In this document: positions 37,842-45,436 of the stretch, in pieces
Layout: the number at the start of each line of letters is the position of its first letter
Numbering within the stretch: position 1 is the stretch's first letter
Origin: an uncultured Rhodothermaceae bacterium
GTDB lineage: Bacteria > Bacteroidota > Rhodothermia > Rhodothermales > Salinibacteraceae
DNA: 64,000 nucleotides
Direction of reading: 5' to 3'
Assembly: GCA_913056335.1 (NCBI GenBank)
Contig: CAJXLX010000001.1
Coordinates: 1-64,000 of the forward strand
Program-made: the position numbers and the translations under genes
The notes under the pieces: generated by a model
The model's input: only the letters and a program-made list of their open reading frames with translations
Told to the model about the DNA's origin: nothing
The model's database searches: none

Positions 37842-38161
37842 TTTGTGGTGCGTACGCCACGTGACGAAAAGAGGTAGAAACGCCCTACTGCAGCGCACAA
37901 ATGTAACGAATTTAGCGAAAGGGTTGCATTCCTGTGCAATACGTACTACAGTAATGTGCAGTATTCATGCATGCCCTTTCACACTCCATATGCTCTTTCT
38001 GCGTTATAGTATAGTTTCCTCTACTTGCCGTCTTCTCAGCGAGTGCTCCTCTGCATGGAGGGGGAATGCACATGCATGACAACGCGCATGACAACGAACG
38101 GAGAAATCGTTGAGGGTGCAAACGTCCCGACTCTTTGCTTGCCACGGGTTTACTCAGTCCT

Positions 38162-39205
38162 ATGAAGATACGACACACTTTCGCGCGGACAATGCTTGAC
38201 CACCTGCAATATACACTTGCACTGGGAGCGCTTTTCCTAATGATCGGGTGGGGGCTCCCTGCGCAGGCACAGGAGGCGTTTGTGGACGACGCCACCTGTC
38301 CGAACACAGGCAGCGGTACATCGGGGGATCCGTACTGCGAAATCCAAACGGCCATTGATAACGCCAATTCAGGTGATGTGATTGACGTGGCTGCGGGGAC
38401 GTATGCGGAAGGCATCGTTGTGAATAAGGCGCTGACGATTCAAGGTAATAATGCTGGCACCCCGGGCAGCGGCACACGTGCCGAGGAAAGCACCATCGTC
38501 CCAGAGCCAAGCGAGGGAGGAGGTCCACCGCCGCCTTTTCTCATAAGTGTGGCATCCTCCAATGTAACAATCGATGGGTTCGAGTTCGATGCACAGAGCA
38601 ACGTGCCCACAGGAATAGGCGTACAATCAGGCGGTGAAACTCCTGTTGTTGAAAGCACAGTGATACAAAATAACGTATTCGAGAATTTCCCAAGCGGAGT
38701 TACGATCAGTATCTTTGAGACGACGATAGATATTCCATTTGGAGTGGGGATTGCAGGTGTTGGGCCGTCCACCGAAAATGAGTTTGCAAACAACCTCTTC
38801 CAGAACTTTGGGGACTACCAGCCGCCGACCGACAACGGTCCGGAGACAGAAGGTGAACCCGAGCGTGCCAGCATCGGGATAGCCGTTGTAGATGGGTTTG
38901 AGGCATCCATTGAGAACAATCGAATTGATAACGTAGCGTTTGGCGTATTGATGACGCAGGGCCGTCTTCCCATGCCGATGGGCGGGGGGCCGATTGGCGA
39001 ACCGATCTTGGGACAAGAGCCCGGAAGCAGAGATGCACAGGCACAGCCTGCAAACGCTGGCATTGCACACGTCAGCGGCGGCCAAATCACCAACGTTCAT
39101 CGTGGCATTGTCTTCTACCCCGGACAGCAAGACGCCACCTACTATGGTGGAGGGAGTAGAAATCAGTGGAGCCGAAGAGTTTGGCATTGTATCGTTCCGT
39201 TTTGA
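38162..39205 (+). CDS. Secreted right-handed beta-helix protein, N-terminal part (frameshifted)
   Basis: Signal peptide; ...DPYCEIQTAIDNANSGDVIDVAAGTYAEGIVVNKALTIQGNNAG; in-frame homology ends at GIVFYPGQQDATYYGG. Confidence 0.75.
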   Translation: MKIRHTFARTMLDHLQYTLALGALFLMIGWGLPAQAQEAFVDDATCPNTGSGTSGDPYCEIQTAIDNANSGDVIDVAAGTYAEGIVVNKALTIQGNNAGTPGSGTRAEESTIVPEPSEGGGPPPPFLISVASSNVTIDGFEFDAQSNVPTGIGVQSGGETPVVESTVIQNNVFENFPSGVTISIFETTIDIPFGVGIAGVGPSTENEFANNLFQNFGDYQPPTDNGPETEGEPERASIGIAVVDGFEASIENNRIDNVAFGVLMTQGRLPMPMGGGPIGEPILGQEPGSRDAQAQPANAGIAHVSGGQITNVHRGIVFYPGQQDATYYGGGSRNQWSRRVWHCIVPF

Positions 39206-41927
39206 CGGGGAAGAGGTCTATCAGCCTGCCCTTGGCGATGGGAGCAATGACATTACGGCTACGATCCGCAATGTCACGATCACCGATACCGGAAGTCCAG
39301 CAAGCTCGGGCGATGCGGCAGGCATCGCCACCAATGCGTTTTCGGGAACCGGATTGCTCACCACAACCATCGAGAACTGCACGATTCGTGATAATCAGAA
39401 CCGCGGGATCAATGCGCGAGGCGCCGATGATAGTGCGGTCTCAGTATCCGTAACTGGATGTGTTGTAGAAGGGAACGGGTATGCTCCGAATTCAAATGCC
39501 AACGCCAACGGAATTATCGCACAGCGCGGTGCTGAGATCACTGTGGAAAACAGTACTATAAGCAACGTATCCACCAACCAGTCGGCCCCCGAGGCTGATG
39601 CGGTGTCGGTAAAGAGTGAAGCGGAAGCGGAAGAGGGCGAGGGAGACCGTGACAACGGAAAAATGACAATCACAGATTCTCGGATCCTGGCTCCTGTGGG
39701 CCAGGCAGCCGTGGCGGCGTCTCCGGGTGGAGCTGGAGATCCCGGCTTCCTGGATGCTTCGGGCAACTGGTGGGGCAGCACCAATCCTGCAGCCTTTGAG
39801 ATTAGCGATGCAGAGGATATTGTCGACTACAGTCCCTTCCTGAACAGCGGCACGGACACCGACATGGGCACGCCGGGTTTTCAAGGCGACGTTTCAGTGC
39901 TCAGCGTGGACAGTGGAAGCCCGCAGTTGCAGGCCGGTACGCGCATCGAAGAAGCGGTTACGCTGGGGGGCGCTGCCGAGATTATTCTGCAGTCGACAAG
40001 CGGACAGTTTAACGTGTCTACCGACGTATCCGTGCCAGGCGACCTCGTTGTGGCGGGTGACATTGAGTTTGGGACAGTCAACGGCGACATCCAAATCGTT
40101 AACAACGAACTGGCCGTGGAAGGCGGCTCAGTCACCAACAGCCCGATGTTCGATGTGCAAAACCGCTTTGTGGGAGATCAGCCCGGCGGAAATGGTGATA
40201 ACGCCGGGTGGCGCCTGCTTTCCTCGCCCCGTGCGAGCGAATCCGCTGCGCTACTTGAGGATCTGCAGCAGGCCAATACCGGCACCATTCTGGCGCTGTG
40301 GGACGATGAAGTGCAAGAGTACGACTACATCAACTCTGTAAACGGAACCACGGATCTACCGCGTGGCGAGAGCTTCTTCGTCTACCTCTTCGACCTTGAC
40401 AATCCGATTGGAACAGAGGCCAGCGACACGTGCACTCCAAGTGATGCGTGCATTCGCACGAGCGGCCTGCTCAACGTTGGCAATGCCCCAACTGGTGGCT
40501 TCGGCACAAATACTGTAACGGTAGGCGTGTCGGATACAGAGAACACCAGCTCGACAGAGGCCGGATACCTGCTCGGTAACCCGTTTACCCAGTCGTTCGA
40601 TATTGCCAACCTGACGGTGCAGTCCACCGGGAGCCCCATCGGAACAGATGGTATCTTTGAAGGAGCGGTCACGGTGTATAATCCTCTAACTGATGAGTTT
40701 ACGCCGGTGAACGCCGATTCGAACCTGGAAAGCGAGGTGGCGCCCTGGCAAGGATTCTGGCTATTGCGTCAGCCATCCGAAGAGCCGCTGCAAGAAGAGA
40801 CACTCGTCTACGAAGAAGCCGGACGCACGCAAGGGGCGCCGTTTGTGCCCGCGAAGTCGACGATGGCCTCGTTCAACAGCGGGCAGCTCTTCGTAACGCT
40901 CGGGATAGAGCAAGGCGCAGAGGTGGTACAGCAGAGTCGGGCTTCCCTCTATGCCCGCGAAGGGGCCTCCACCGACCGCGACGCGTACGACCTGGCACGC
41001 ATTCAGCCAATGAGTGAAACATTTGCCCAGGTGTCGTTCCTGCGTCCCGACGGAACGCGGGCTTCGCAGTACAGCGTGCCGTACGCGCTTGAGGGTTCGG
41101 TCGACATCCCGCTGCATGCGGAAGGAGTCGGGGTAAGCGGTACCGCCCATATCTCGACGGAGGGCTGGACCCACATCCCAAATGATTGGGAACTGACGCT
41201 CACCGACACGCAGACTGGTGAGACTACGCCGCTCGTGCCGGGAGAAAGCTACACGTTCAACCTGAACGAGAGCGAGCCACAGCCCACAGCCCAGCCGGGG
41301 ATGCAGTCCAGTGAAGGAGAAGCCAATCCGCGCTTTGTTGTGACAGCGGGTCCGGTGGAGCCGCTTCCCGTTGAGCTTGCGCAGTTCACCGGACGCGCCG
41401 ACGGGACCAGTGCGGTGCTCGCCTGGGAAACCGCCTCGGAGACCAATAACGCGGGCTTCCGGGTGCAACGGCAGTCCAACGGCGGTTCCTTCGAAACGGT
41501 AGAGTTTGTAGAAGGCACCGGGACGACCGACGCGCCGCAGTCTTATCAGATCCGGGTGGAAGACCTCAACTACGGCACGCACAGCTTCCGCATTGAGCAG
41601 GTAGATACCGACGGGACGGCCACGCCGAGCGATCCAGTCGAGGTGGAGGTGCGTCTGCAGGAAGCGATGGCCCTATCGCCAGTTGCGCCGAACCCGGTGC
41701 AGGGGCAAAGTACAATCACGATGACGGTGCGCGAGACGCAGCCCGTGCAAGCCGCGCTCTACGACGCACTGGGCCGCCGGGTGCGGACGCTCTACGATGG
41801 CGAACTGAGTGGGCAACAGCCGAAGACGCTAACGATTGATGCATCGTCGCTTGCCAGTGGCACGTACTTCGTTCGGGTGCGCAGCAAATCGTCAATCCAA
41901 ACGACTCGTGTTGTGGTTGTCCGATAA
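39144..41927 (+). CDS. Beta-helix protein continuation with C-terminal T9SS type A sorting domain
   Basis: VEGVEISGAEEFGIVSFRFDG continues from the other frame; C-terminus LSPVAPNPVQGQSTITMTVRETQPVQAALYDALGRRVRTLYDGELSGQQPKTLTIDASSLASGTYFVRV. Confidence 0.8.
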   Translation: MVEGVEISGAEEFGIVSFRFDGEEVYQPALGDGSNDITATIRNVTITDTGSPASSGDAAGIATNAFSGTGLLTTTIENCTIRDNQNRGINARGADDSAVSVSVTGCVVEGNGYAPNSNANANGIIAQRGAEITVENSTISNVSTNQSAPEADAVSVKSEAEAEEGEGDRDNGKMTITDSRILAPVGQAAVAASPGGAGDPGFLDASGNWWGSTNPAAFEISDAEDIVDYSPFLNSGTDTDMGTPGFQGDVSVLSVDSGSPQLQAGTRIEEAVTLGGAAEIILQSTSGQFNVSTDVSVPGDLVVAGDIEFGTVNGDIQIVNNELAVEGGSVTNSPMFDVQNRFVGDQPGGNGDNAGWRLLSSPRASESAALLEDLQQANTGTILALWDDEVQEYDYINSVNGTTDLPRGESFFVYLFDLDNPIGTEASDTCTPSDACIRTSGLLNVGNAPTGGFGTNTVTVGVSDTENTSSTEAGYLLGNPFTQSFDIANLTVQSTGSPIGTDGIFEGAVTVYNPLTDEFTPVNADSNLESEVAPWQGFWLLRQPSEEPLQEETLVYEEAGRTQGAPFVPAKSTMASFNSGQLFVTLGIEQGAEVVQQSRASLYAREGASTDRDAYDLARIQPMSETFAQVSFLRPDGTRASQYSVPYALEGSVDIPLHAEGVGVSGTAHISTEGWTHIPNDWELTLTDTQTGETTPLVPGESYTFNLNESEPQPTAQPGMQSSEGEANPRFVVTAGPVEPLPVELAQFTGRADGTSAVLAWETASETNNAGFRVQRQSNGGSFETVEFVEGTGTTDAPQSYQIRVEDLNYGTHSFRIEQVDTDGTATPSDPVEVEVRLQEAMALSPVAPNPVQGQSTITMTVRETQPVQAALYDALGRRVRTLYDGELSGQQPKTLTIDASSLASGTYFVRVRSKSSIQTTRVVVVR

Positions 41928-41978: not shown

Positions 41979-42173
41979 ATGTCCGCGACGCGCGATACAT
42001 CTCGGTCTCCCCGTTCCAAAGGAGCGGGTTCGTCCCGGCAGCACGACCCGGAATCTGACCAGGACGTCCCTGCAGGCTACACGCCGCCACAGGTACGTCC
42101 ACTCGGCACCCTGCCAGCGTCTACAGGTATGCCGCAGTCGGCGGGGGGGAAGCCTGGCCAAACACCGACATAG
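41979..42173 (+). CDS. Putative RiPP precursor with lasso-family leader motif
   Basis: MSATRDTSRSPRSKGAGSSRQHDPESDQDVPAGYTPPQVRPLGTLPASTGMPQSAGGKPGQTPT; YTPPQVRPLGTLPAST fits YxxPx(L/V)xxxGxxxxxT. Adjacent to the HprK/PqqD/B2 genes. Confidence 0.65.
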   Translation: MSATRDTSRSPRSKGAGSSRQHDPESDQDVPAGYTPPQVRPLGTLPASTGMPQSAGGKPGQTPT

Positions 42174-42266
42174 TAGCGAAACTTTGCTGAAATTTTTGGC
42201 AAACAGATGCTCTGGCCAAGGGATGCATCGCATCGATCTTCTGTTTCATATTGCCAATTGTAAGCA

Positions 42267-43319
42267 ATGAAGGTAACCCCGGCTGCCATCGAGGCCGGTC
42301 CTGTGTTAAAAATCCGTGTTGAAGAGCCGTCGCAAAGCAAAGCGCATACATTAATGTCTGCGGTCGATGCTCTGGCCTGGAAGTATTGCAAGCCAAACCA
42401 GGACCAGGTTCCGGACGGCCTCATCGACGTGTCGTCACAGCTTGTGGGGATTCCCCGGTCAGCAACGCAGGTGGAGCGTGACCAGCAAGGTACCGTCTGG
42501 AAGACATCACAGCATTGGTGGGTTGAACGTGCGGCGTACTGTGTTGCCTTAGAGCGGGACTCAGTTCGGGCTACGCTCTACATGGACCATACTGATCAAG
42601 AGATACAGGCATCGCTTGCATACGCAATCCGCGATATCATCACATTGCTTCTTCCACATACGGGTTGGATACCGCTGCACGCTGCGTGTGTCGTGCCTGC
42701 TGGCGCACCTGACGAGGGTGTACTACTTGTTGGAGCTTCCGGGGCAGGAAAGTCGACCCTTACACTGGGTATGCTCATGCAGGGCGCCCGGTGCGTTAGT
42801 GATGACCTGCTTCTTATAGCGCAAGAGCAAGCTCGTAAAAGCAAAAATACCCGATCCGGCGGTGTCGCCGTGTACAGCATGATGCGAGATATGCGGGTAT
42901 GTAACGATGCGTGGGAGCGCCTCGGCTTGTGTAAAGACCATGCTGGCTCATCGGGTGTATTTGCTATACATGCAGCAGTTGAGAAGCACACGCTAACAGC
43001 CGCTGCAATGTCGAAACGTTCTTCCACAGCAGAACTGAGAACCGCAAGTAGCAGTCCTACGCGCATATTGCTGCCAACAATCACCAGCCACCCTCGGAGC
43101 CGATTAGTACCCGTATCGCGGGCGGAGGCGCTACCTGATTTGCTTTCGCAGATGGTTCCGGCAACAATGCTGCCTGCTGACGTACAGCACGATCAATTGG
43201 AGCGTACTGCAGCGTTGCTCCGCCAGTGCACCGCCTACCGCCTGCACGCCGGGCGCGACCTCTACCACAACCCAGGGCACCTGGCGGCACTCCTGCAAAC
43301 TACAACAGCCTTCGCATAG
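42267..43319 (+). CDS. HPr kinase-like protein (RiPP cluster associated)
   Basis: LLPHTGWIPLHAACVV...GVLLVGASGAGKSTLTLGMLMQGARCVSDDLLLI: P-loop and HprK-like SDDL motif. Confidence 0.8.
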   Translation: MKVTPAAIEAGPVLKIRVEEPSQSKAHTLMSAVDALAWKYCKPNQDQVPDGLIDVSSQLVGIPRSATQVERDQQGTVWKTSQHWWVERAAYCVALERDSVRATLYMDHTDQEIQASLAYAIRDIITLLLPHTGWIPLHAACVVPAGAPDEGVLLVGASGAGKSTLTLGMLMQGARCVSDDLLLIAQEQARKSKNTRSGGVAVYSMMRDMRVCNDAWERLGLCKDHAGSSGVFAIHAAVEKHTLTAAAMSKRSSTAELRTASSSPTRILLPTITSHPRSRLVPVSRAEALPDLLSQMVPATMLPADVQHDQLERTAALLRQCTAYRLHAGRDLYHNPGHLAALLQTTTAFA

Positions 43320-43344
43320 CGTTCTACATCTGCCTTCCGTCATC

Positions 43345-43671
43345 ATGCCTGCGCCTTCTGCTTTCGCCAACGATGTGCCCGTACGCTGCGCCGTGCATGC
43401 CACCGCTACGGCCCTCGATGCCGACTCCGCGGTCGTGCTCGACCTCAAGAGCCAGACGTACTACGAACTCAACGAGACGGGATACGTGCTCTGGGCCTAC
43501 CTGCAGGAGCACGACCAGGCCACCGCCTCCGAGCTCGCCGAGGCGCTCTGTACTCATGCCAATGCCGACGCCGCCGGCGATTCCGTGCTCACGCCGGCGA
43601 CCGCCCGGACGCACACCAACACGTTTTTGCAATCCATGCGCGCGGCTCAACTCATTGTGCCTGCATCATGA
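43345..43671 (+). CDS. PqqD-family RiPP recognition element (lasso B1-like)
   Basis: ALDADSAVVLDLKSQTYYELNETGYVLWAYLQE. Confidence 0.85.
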   Translation: MPAPSAFANDVPVRCAVHATATALDADSAVVLDLKSQTYYELNETGYVLWAYLQEHDQATASELAEALCTHANADAAGDSVLTPATARTHTNTFLQSMRAAQLIVPAS

Positions 43672-44174
43672 TTGCCGACGAACCTCCAACCATAGCGACG
43701 CACATCCAGGAGTACGCTGCGCGTCCACGGTGGCACCGGGCCCTGGCCTGCGTACAGGTCCTGCCCCACGCGCTCTGGCTCTACGCTATCGTGGCACTGC
43801 ACCTCCGCCGCGTGCAGCAAGCCGCCACGCCGCGCACGCTCCCCGACGCACTGAAGCGTCTGCCCCCAACTGTGCTCCATACAACATGGCGCGGATTTGG
43901 CCCGCCGCTTGCATTGGGGGCATGCCTGACGATAGCCTACCGGCTTACCACACGCGGGCACTCCGGCCGCTGCCTGCCACGCGCACTCCTTCTATTCGGG
44001 CTGGTGCAGCGCACCGAACACGCACCCGTGCATTTCTGCATCGGTGCCCAACGCAACCGTCCGCATGAGCACCTGGCCCACGCCTGGGTCGAGGTGGGCG
44101 GCACGGCGCTGGCCGAACCCGTCAGTCCGCGCACCACCCACCGCCTGCTCTACCGCTACCCGACCACTTCGTGA
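43668..44174 (+). CDS. Lasso peptide biosynthesis B2-like (transglutaminase-like) leader protease
   Basis: HSGRCLPRALLLFGLV...HAWVEVGGTALAEP (Cys/His). ATGA overlap with the PqqD gene. Confidence 0.85.
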   Translation: MIADEPPTIATHIQEYAARPRWHRALACVQVLPHALWLYAIVALHLRRVQQAATPRTLPDALKRLPPTVLHTTWRGFGPPLALGACLTIAYRLTTRGHSGRCLPRALLLFGLVQRTEHAPVHFCIGAQRNRPHEHLAHAWVEVGGTALAEPVSPRTTHRLLYRYPTTS

Positions 44175-45436
44175 TGGCTGCTCCCGATGCTGTCTCCGAA
44201 ACCGCCGTTCAGGTGGGATGCGCCGCGCTCCGCCACGCTCTCCAGGTCGATGCAAAGGAGACATGGACGGCCACGCTCAACAGACATGGCCCTGCGTGCG
44301 AACCCCGTCACCTGATGGCGTGGGCCCAGCATCACAACGTGATCCCTTCGGTGTATCGCGCGCTTGCGGCTGTAGACCACCCAGATGCCGCTCCCCTGCG
44401 AAATGCGCTTGCCCCGCATGCACAGACCGTGGCGGCTGCCGGACTCCTACAGGCCGAGGCACTCGCCGACATCCTGCACGCGCTGGACCGCCACAACATC
44501 GACGTGATTCCGCTGAAAGGCGTGCACCTGGATGTGCGGGCGTACGGCGGTCCCGGAAAACGCAAAGACGGCGATCATGACCTGCTCATCCGCCCCGAGC
44601 AGCTTACCGACGCCGTCGCCGTGCTGCGCAAACTTGGCTATGCGTCCACCGACCCCGACCGTCCGGTCGAAACGTGGCGCGAGACCGTGCCGATTCACCA
44701 CGGGCCGCCGCTCGTGAAGCAAGACGGTCCAATGCCAAGCTGGATCGAGATGCACTGGCATACCGCGCCCGCAACCGAAGGGCTGCGCCTGCACAATCCA
44801 GCACAGCGCACCGCCAACGTATGGCGCCGCTCGCATCTGGCAACCCTACGCGGCGCACCGATCCGCGAAATGGACCCTGCCGACGAGGTGGCGTACCTGG
44901 CGCTGCACGCCATCCGCCACATGGCGCAGCATACGCGTGGGCTTTCGCTGCGCTTTTCGATGCTCGAAGACCTCTACCGCCGCATCCAGTCGCTGCCGGC
45001 TCTCTCGGGACGAACGCTCCGAACGCGTATCCAGGCACTGGGGCGGGTGGATGTACAGGGGCCGCTGCACTACGTGTGGACAACCTTGCTCGGCGCTCCG
45101 CAAGACGCGCTCTGGCCCAACGGTACGGGCGCTGTGGCGCCGTGGCCGCGCCAGGGGTGGGAGCGGAGGCTCTTACCCCTGGCGTTTCTGCGCAGCGCGC
45201 CCCATCCCGATGGCCCCTCGAAGCGGCGCTGGCATCGCGAAAAGGCGTGGGGACTGCTTCTGCATACGCTTCTGTTGCCCCACTGGCGCGACCGAGCAGC
45301 GCTCATTGCACGCGACCTACTCGGTCCGCTGGTGCAGGTGAACGAGAACGACCGCGCGGTAGCACCGACGTTGCCTGATGCACTGCTGCTTCCCGTGCGG
45401 TGGGTGCGGCTGGGCTGGCAGGTGGTACGTGGGTGA
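44174..45436 (+). CDS. Nucleotidyltransferase family protein (NTP_transf_5-like)
   Basis: LLQAEALADILHALDRHNIDVIPLKGVHLDVRAYGGPGKRKDGDHDLLIRPEQLTDAVAVLRKLGY. TGATG overlap with the B2 gene. Confidence 0.85.
   Translation: MAAPDAVSETAVQVGCAALRHALQVDAKETWTATLNRHGPACEPRHLMAWAQHHNVIPSVYRALAAVDHPDAAPLRNALAPHAQTVAAAGLLQAEALADILHALDRHNIDVIPLKGVHLDVRAYGGPGKRKDGDHDLLIRPEQLTDAVAVLRKLGYASTDPDRPVETWRETVPIHHGPPLVKQDGPMPSWIEMHWHTAPATEGLRLHNPAQRTANVWRRSHLATLRGAPIREMDPADEVAYLALHAIRHMAQHTRGLSLRFSMLEDLYRRIQSLPALSGRTLRTRIQALGRVDVQGPLHYVWTTLLGAPQDALWPNGTGAVAPWPRQGWERRLLPLAFLRSAPHPDGPSKRRWHREKAWGLLLHTLLLPHWRDRAALIARDLLGPLVQVNENDRAVAPTLPDALLLPVRWVRLGWQVVRG

Follow-up and report, generated by a model that had tools for sequence, protein, structure and literature searches.

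The 64-kb stretch of DNA analysed here (the window) carries five co-oriented genes directly behind a gene for type IX secretion system (T9SS) cargo. The open reading frames of the five, first described in a sequence-only reading, were confirmed at their positions, and Pfam and NCBIfam models name the HprK-like kinase, PqqD, B2 and NTP_transf_5 products. The features are as follows:

38994..41927, + strand: T9SS cargo gene, right-handed beta-helix with a C-terminal Por_Secre_tail sorting domain (PF18962, 1.4e-10; Beta_helix, 1e-6).
41979..42173, + strand: precursor-like peptide of 64 aa, with a 64-aa ortholog in Longimonas halophila.
42078..42095, + strand: predicted RRE-binding motif Y34-T-P-P-Q-V39, that is Y(-17), P(-14), V(-12); Y-x-P-P is invariant in 6/6 aligned copies and the spacing equals that of BsfA.
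42123..42128, + strand: predicted leader end for B2 cleavage, T49(-2)-G50(-1); T-G is invariant in the alignment.
42129..42170, + strand: predicted core MPQSAGGKPGQTPT, free of Asp/Glu (sequence and alignment).
42138..42140, + strand: Ser54 (core Ser4), the predicted phosphorylation site and sole invariant core Ser/Thr.
42267..43319, + strand: HprK-like kinase with His138, Lys162, Asp179 and Asp180 (PF07475, 4.7e-7, below the Pfam cutoff), placed in the cyclase-less kinase clade.
43345..43671, + strand: PqqD family protein, a discrete RRE (B1; PF05402, 2.6e-11).
43668..44174, + strand: B2 cysteine leader peptidase, Cys102 and His138 invariant (Transglut_core3, PF13471, 5.3e-10).
44171..45436, + strand: NTP_transf_5 nucleotidyltransferase (NTase; PF14907, 1e-34), predicted to act on the phosphopeptide.

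The tight coupling noted for the last three genes is real on both sides, with an ATGA overlap (43668-43671) between PqqD and B2 and a further overlap between B2 and the NTase. The end of the PF18962 match in the cargo gene lies 61 bp upstream of the peptide start. This cargo gene is itself split over two frames (5' part at 38135-39205, the rest at 38994-41927), which looks like a frameshift, either from sequencing or real. The strict lasso leader motif Y..P.[LVI]...G.....T, recognised in the peptide from the beginning, has a single occurrence in the ORFs of the whole window, where simulated windows give 0.05. If this leader, like those of characterised systems, ends in T(-2)-G(-1), the core begins at Met51 and not, as had been proposed, at Gly50; its lack of Asp/Glu stands. 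Among the features of the lasso class, the locus has the YxxPx[L/V] leader with T(-2), the PqqD-type B1 and the B2 leader peptidase; it has neither an in-cluster macrolactam cyclase nor a small core residue 1 with Asp/Glu at positions 7-9. No Asn-synthetase-like ORF is found anywhere in the window, as the first description of a cyclase-less cluster had it. The best match of the PqqD profile is a lasso RRE, TbiB1 (5v1u, 7.9e-22), and the B2 protein scores 34.1 bits against the NF033537 lasso B2 model (cutoff 33). The cassette has no exporter gene, and the operon has B2 in place of any SpI/SipW-like leader peptidase. A promoter scan returned no promoter-like site, terminators were not clearly above chance, and a plasmid search found none. 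A Treacle match on the peptide was discarded as low-complexity noise.

The host genome (G000) is Longimonas-like and 86% complete. L. halophila (NZ_PDEP01000009) has the same gene order; it was the sole find in a contig scan across genomes with the window NTase. Protein identity between the two is 91% for the NTase, 82% for B2, 79% for PqqD, 45% for the kinase and 52% for the peptide, while the window NTase is 37% identical to that of G022, a member of another genus. DNA identity to L. halophila falls sharply at ~43,200, inside the 3' end of the kinase gene: the kinase region (42267-43200) is of lower GC and ~50% identical, and the rest of the cassette ~80-90%. The GC3 of the window kinase is 0.56 versus 0.70, and the peptide has dN 0.48 and dS 1.36. 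Allele exchange in the kinase region is possible, and the kinase and its substrate peptide apparently either were exchanged as a pair or are diverging in step.

The peptide is one member of a dispersed family, with 15 copies in 10 genomes (profile search, E < 1e-3) that all have the spacing Y/F(-17), P(-14), V/I/L(-12), G(-8) and T/A(-2). The profile search added copies on contigs C139 and C148 of the host, C2 of L. halophila, and C38 and C79 of G022. Repeating it with the peptides of G037 and G048 added revealed a third subfamily, spread over five species of the genus g11; GSFNFS and GVFSFS are examples of its predicted cores. In the Longimonas/G022 alignment (six copies), Y-x-P-P, G-T, T-G-M and one core Ser are invariant, so that every aligned core begins with Met. 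Predicted cores across the family have 6, 8 or ~14 residues with one conserved Ser, and cores this short speak against a lasso product. The window peptide ends in Thr and other Longimonas ends vary; a C-terminal Ser acceptor occurs in genus g11 only. In 7/7 pairwise comparisons dN is below dS (ratio ~0.15-0.45), which shows purifying selection and marks the copies as real genes. A search across the phylum (396 genomes) found no copy outside the order.

Why should so small a gene keep such constant company? In 13/13 readable copies (G000 C1 and C139; G001 C9 and C2; G022 C38; G037; G048 C342 and C219; and five g11 species) a T9SS sorting-domain gene lies directly upstream on the same strand, at ~20-150 bp. 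Two copies fall outside this count: C79, which has no upstream sequence, and C148, at a contig edge that reads ...VVR-stop, the usual sorting-domain ending. T9SS sorting-domain genes number 29 in G000, 42 in G001 and 17 in G022, so cargo makes up ~1% of genes, taking gene totals as an estimated ~3,000; at that frequency the adjacency is not due to chance, even with orthologous loci counted once. The cargo gene, first read as the border of the cluster, is instead a conserved upstream partner of the peptide and, because all 13 readable copies stand directly behind one, is counted here, from gene order, as belonging to the unit. No single kind of cargo stands upstream: the proteins are beta-helix, POMP repeat, weakly LTD-like or unclassified. 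In G044, a looser relative, a T9SS gene, a 67-aa peptide, a kinase, an NTase, PqqD and B2 form one run, and T9SS genes are also found near many other cassettes that have no cyclase.

Most peptide copies are not adjacent to a cassette, so peptide and cassette are tied by co-occurrence and the leader motif only. Among 250 genomes of the class, the A2 profile has strong matches in G000, G001 and G022 only, exactly the genomes with a close kinase, B2 and NTase. In genus g11, peptide and kinase are found together in the same 5 genomes, and the g11 genomes G052 and G077, which have no peptide, are absent from the kinase matches. G052 retains PqqD, B2 and a 66-aa NTase piece with no kinase (L131, G052:C1:404000-423500), an apparent cassette remnant. 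In G042, with the peptide at 1.107 Mb and the cassette at 1.84 Mb, the two are so far apart that the cassette, if it serves the peptide, must act in trans. The G022 cassette itself contains no motif peptide, and some Rhodothermales cassettes have no B2 or no NTase.

The catalytic His-Lys-Asp-Asp needed in lasso-tailoring kinases (PMC9266682) corresponds to H138, K162, D179 and D180, invariant in an alignment of 9 kinases. These residues are shared with the PadeK/ThcoK-type kinases; the C-terminal Ser acceptor of that type is missing from the window peptide. The kinase tree separates, with 100/100 support, a clade whose kinases are mostly associated with a cyclase from one whose kinases mostly are not; the sampling lacks the kinases of the C68 type described below, probably because their match is split into two domains. 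The row L123_18679, tagged CYC, comes from a separate cassette near a lasso cluster: locus L123 (G020:C1:236000-255900) holds two cyclase-bearing lasso clusters within 16 kb and a separate kinase-PqqD pair. The L044 and L052 kinases fall in the cyclase clade, yet have no cyclase nearby. Beside a kinase and an NTase, these two loci (L044:11103-11294; L052:3844-4047) carry precursors of a further type, also cyclase-free, whose cores have the pattern AEYGxL (KAEYGDLTTAKYGDLFG; QAEYGGLDAATHGLLF), and the L052 copy also stands behind a T9SS gene.

A genome-wide search did reveal one lasso cyclase in the host, on contig C68 (NF033535, 8.8e-104, below the curated cutoff), so the absence of a cyclase does not extend to the whole genome; the enzyme belongs to a separate and complete lasso cluster (L033, G000 C68:1605-9494) with three precursors, a kinase, PqqD, B2, an NTase and an ABC transporter, syntenic in L. 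halophila (C2, L035). All three C68 precursors end in DCS, and because a C-terminal Ser is common to them, their sequences suggest paeninodin-like phosphorylation. In each of the Longimonas genomes the C68-type cyclase is the sole PF00733 protein, and there are two B2 proteins, each belonging to one of the systems. The 93% complete genome G022 contains the peptides, the cassette and one B2, and no full-length PF00733 protein was found in it. The NCBIfam lasso-leader models match the C68 peptides; against the family described here they give no match (E 0.1; three paralogs, E 10; other subfamilies, E 0.01).

Taken together, we consider it reasonably probable that the locus represents a cyclase-free RiPP system of lasso-leader type, whose products are short, linear, phosphorylated and perhaps glycosylated peptides with a link to type IX secretion. 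The small precursor gene stands immediately downstream of a T9SS cargo gene, and the leader it encodes would be bound by the PqqD/RRE protein through Y(-17)xxP(-14)xV(-12). The HprK-like kinase would then phosphorylate the conserved core Ser, the Ser phosphate may be extended by the NTase with a nucleotidyl group or a sugar, and B2 would cut after T(-2)-G(-1), giving a linear peptide of ~14 residues, or of 6-8 in other families. Several dispersed precursors would be served in trans by a single cassette. We infer these steps from the BsfA spacing, the TbiB1 match, the kinase residues and characterised enzymes: T(-2) is a known determinant of lasso B2; BsfK and LppK phosphorylate core Ser3 (PMC10368454 and PMC9266682 for Bsf; PMC13381572 for Lpp); and PsmN, annotated as a nucleotidyltransferase, puts a hexose on phosphoserine in pseudomycoidin (PMC9266682, PMC10368454). 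The NTase step is uncertain because LppN had no visible effect in the study of its system (PMC13381572). In B2, the residue downstream of HAW is Glu in Longimonas and Asp in G022 and C68, a difference that counts against this reading. The sequence-only proposal of a lasso-type leader-processing module with kinase- or nucleotidyltransferase-based maturation is supported, its chemistry at the level of prediction, and neither of the two findings it named as contrary was made: the 64-aa ORF is conserved in the syntenic L. halophila cluster, and the sole genomic cyclase sits in a cluster of its own, with G022 bearing peptides and no cyclase.

Could the peptide nonetheless be an ordinary lasso precursor? 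The host does have one NF033535-like cyclase and the leader motif is of lasso type, but maturation by the C68 cyclase in trans is hardly credible, since that cluster has its own precursors, PqqD, B2, NTase and transporter and keeps them in L. halophila, the window core is free of acids, aligned Longimonas/G022 cores begin with Met, and related cores have merely 6 or 8 residues. With such cores, and with G022 lacking the enzyme, we reject it. A decaying lasso cluster that has lost its cyclase would explain why all the remaining parts are lasso parts, and such clusters are reported to show patchy gain and loss. It is nevertheless very improbable: the genes are intact and under purifying selection, the arrangement recurs in three families, the kinases form a separate clade, and several precursor copies are intact.

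The remaining alternatives concern the link with the T9SS. The small protein might assist the T9SS and have nothing to do with the cassette, its leader-like motif having another use; a T9SS gene does precede every readable copy and most copies are distant from a cassette, but the exact lasso-leader spacing in three families, the close co-occurrence with the cassette and the frequent T9SS neighbours of cyclase-free cassettes make this quite unlikely. Alternatively, the product may be a free secreted phosphopeptide (a signal or bacteriocin-like) whose T9SS neighbour reflects co-regulation only. This shares its chemistry with the preferred reading and differs in role, and the biological role of the Lpp products is not established either; we think it somewhat unlikely, as the cassette has no exporter and the adjacency is constant while the cargo varies, hinting at more than shared expression. 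Within the preferred, T9SS-coupled system, it is conceivable, though a long shot, that the processed peptide, with a free N-terminal amine and a phospho- or sugar-bearing Ser, would be joined to the T9SS cargo and act there as an anchor or cap made by the ribosome. In Porphyromonas, T9SS cargo is anchored through a seryl linking sugar, and the abstracts on this anchoring describe a sugar linker and no peptide (PMC7468200, PMC13086638), whereas here T9SS cargo genes are the constant partners of a peptide.

Among described systems, the closest is that of the Linear Polyphosphorylated Peptides (LPP), from Paenibacillus alginolyticus and further Bacillota (2026; PMC13381572), which give the cyclase-free kind a precedent. 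Both systems lack a cyclase and have a YxxP leader, a discrete RRE, an HprK-like kinase and an NTP transferase; a core Ser near the N-terminus is phosphorylated in LPP, and here a Ser is conserved at core position 4. The peptidase in LPP is the SipW-like LppS, in contrast to the B2 cysteine peptidase here, and LPP has an MsbA-like transporter where this cassette has no exporter. The LPP leader is YxxPxVLxHQxIxFETxxS, with YxxPxV alone common to both; the LPP core studied has 45 residues, whereas those here are short. LPP genes often lie in capsule loci of Bacillota, unlike the dispersed precursors behind T9SS genes in Rhodothermales, and no T9SS link is reported for LPP (PMC13381572). Phosphorylated lasso peptides (paeninodin, pseudomycoidin, Bsf; PMC9266682, PMC10368454) share PqqD-B1, B2 and the His-Lys-Asp-Asp kinase, sometimes with an NTase that adds hexose to phosphoserine, and an NTase is present here too. 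The leader positions of BsfA are those of the window peptide (Y(-17), P(-14), V(-12) and -2), with Ile at -2 in BsfA and Thr here; the systems differ in that the present one has no macrolactam cyclase, no ring acid and a core that is Met-first or too short. An HprK-related kinase and a PqqD family protein also occur in the HPr-rel-A system (TIGR04352/TIGR04353), to which B2 and the T9SS link are added here; both proteins score below the curated cutoffs (38.8/200 and 24.8/35 bits). New with respect to LPP are the B2 peptidase, precursors scattered over the genome and the coupling to T9SS. The literature searched contains no paper with both T9SS and lasso peptides.

RRE-Finder lists ~8,000 discrete lasso-type RREs, of which ~4,000 co-occur with a leader peptidase and cyclase; the remainder were treated as possible false positives. 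Some of these cyclase-less lasso-type RREs may instead serve linear, cyclase-free peptides. The system described here would carry the LPP idea outside Bacillota, with an ordinary lasso peptidase, and would tie RiPP processing to type IX secretion. If the anchoring idea were true, a RiPP would replace the seryl linking sugar of Porphyromonas cargo anchoring, and proteins would be held at the surface through a RiPP. The system is carried by a cultured species, L. halophila KCTC 42399, whose candidate phosphopeptide is MQVSAPSNPPTPTP, and is thus directly testable.
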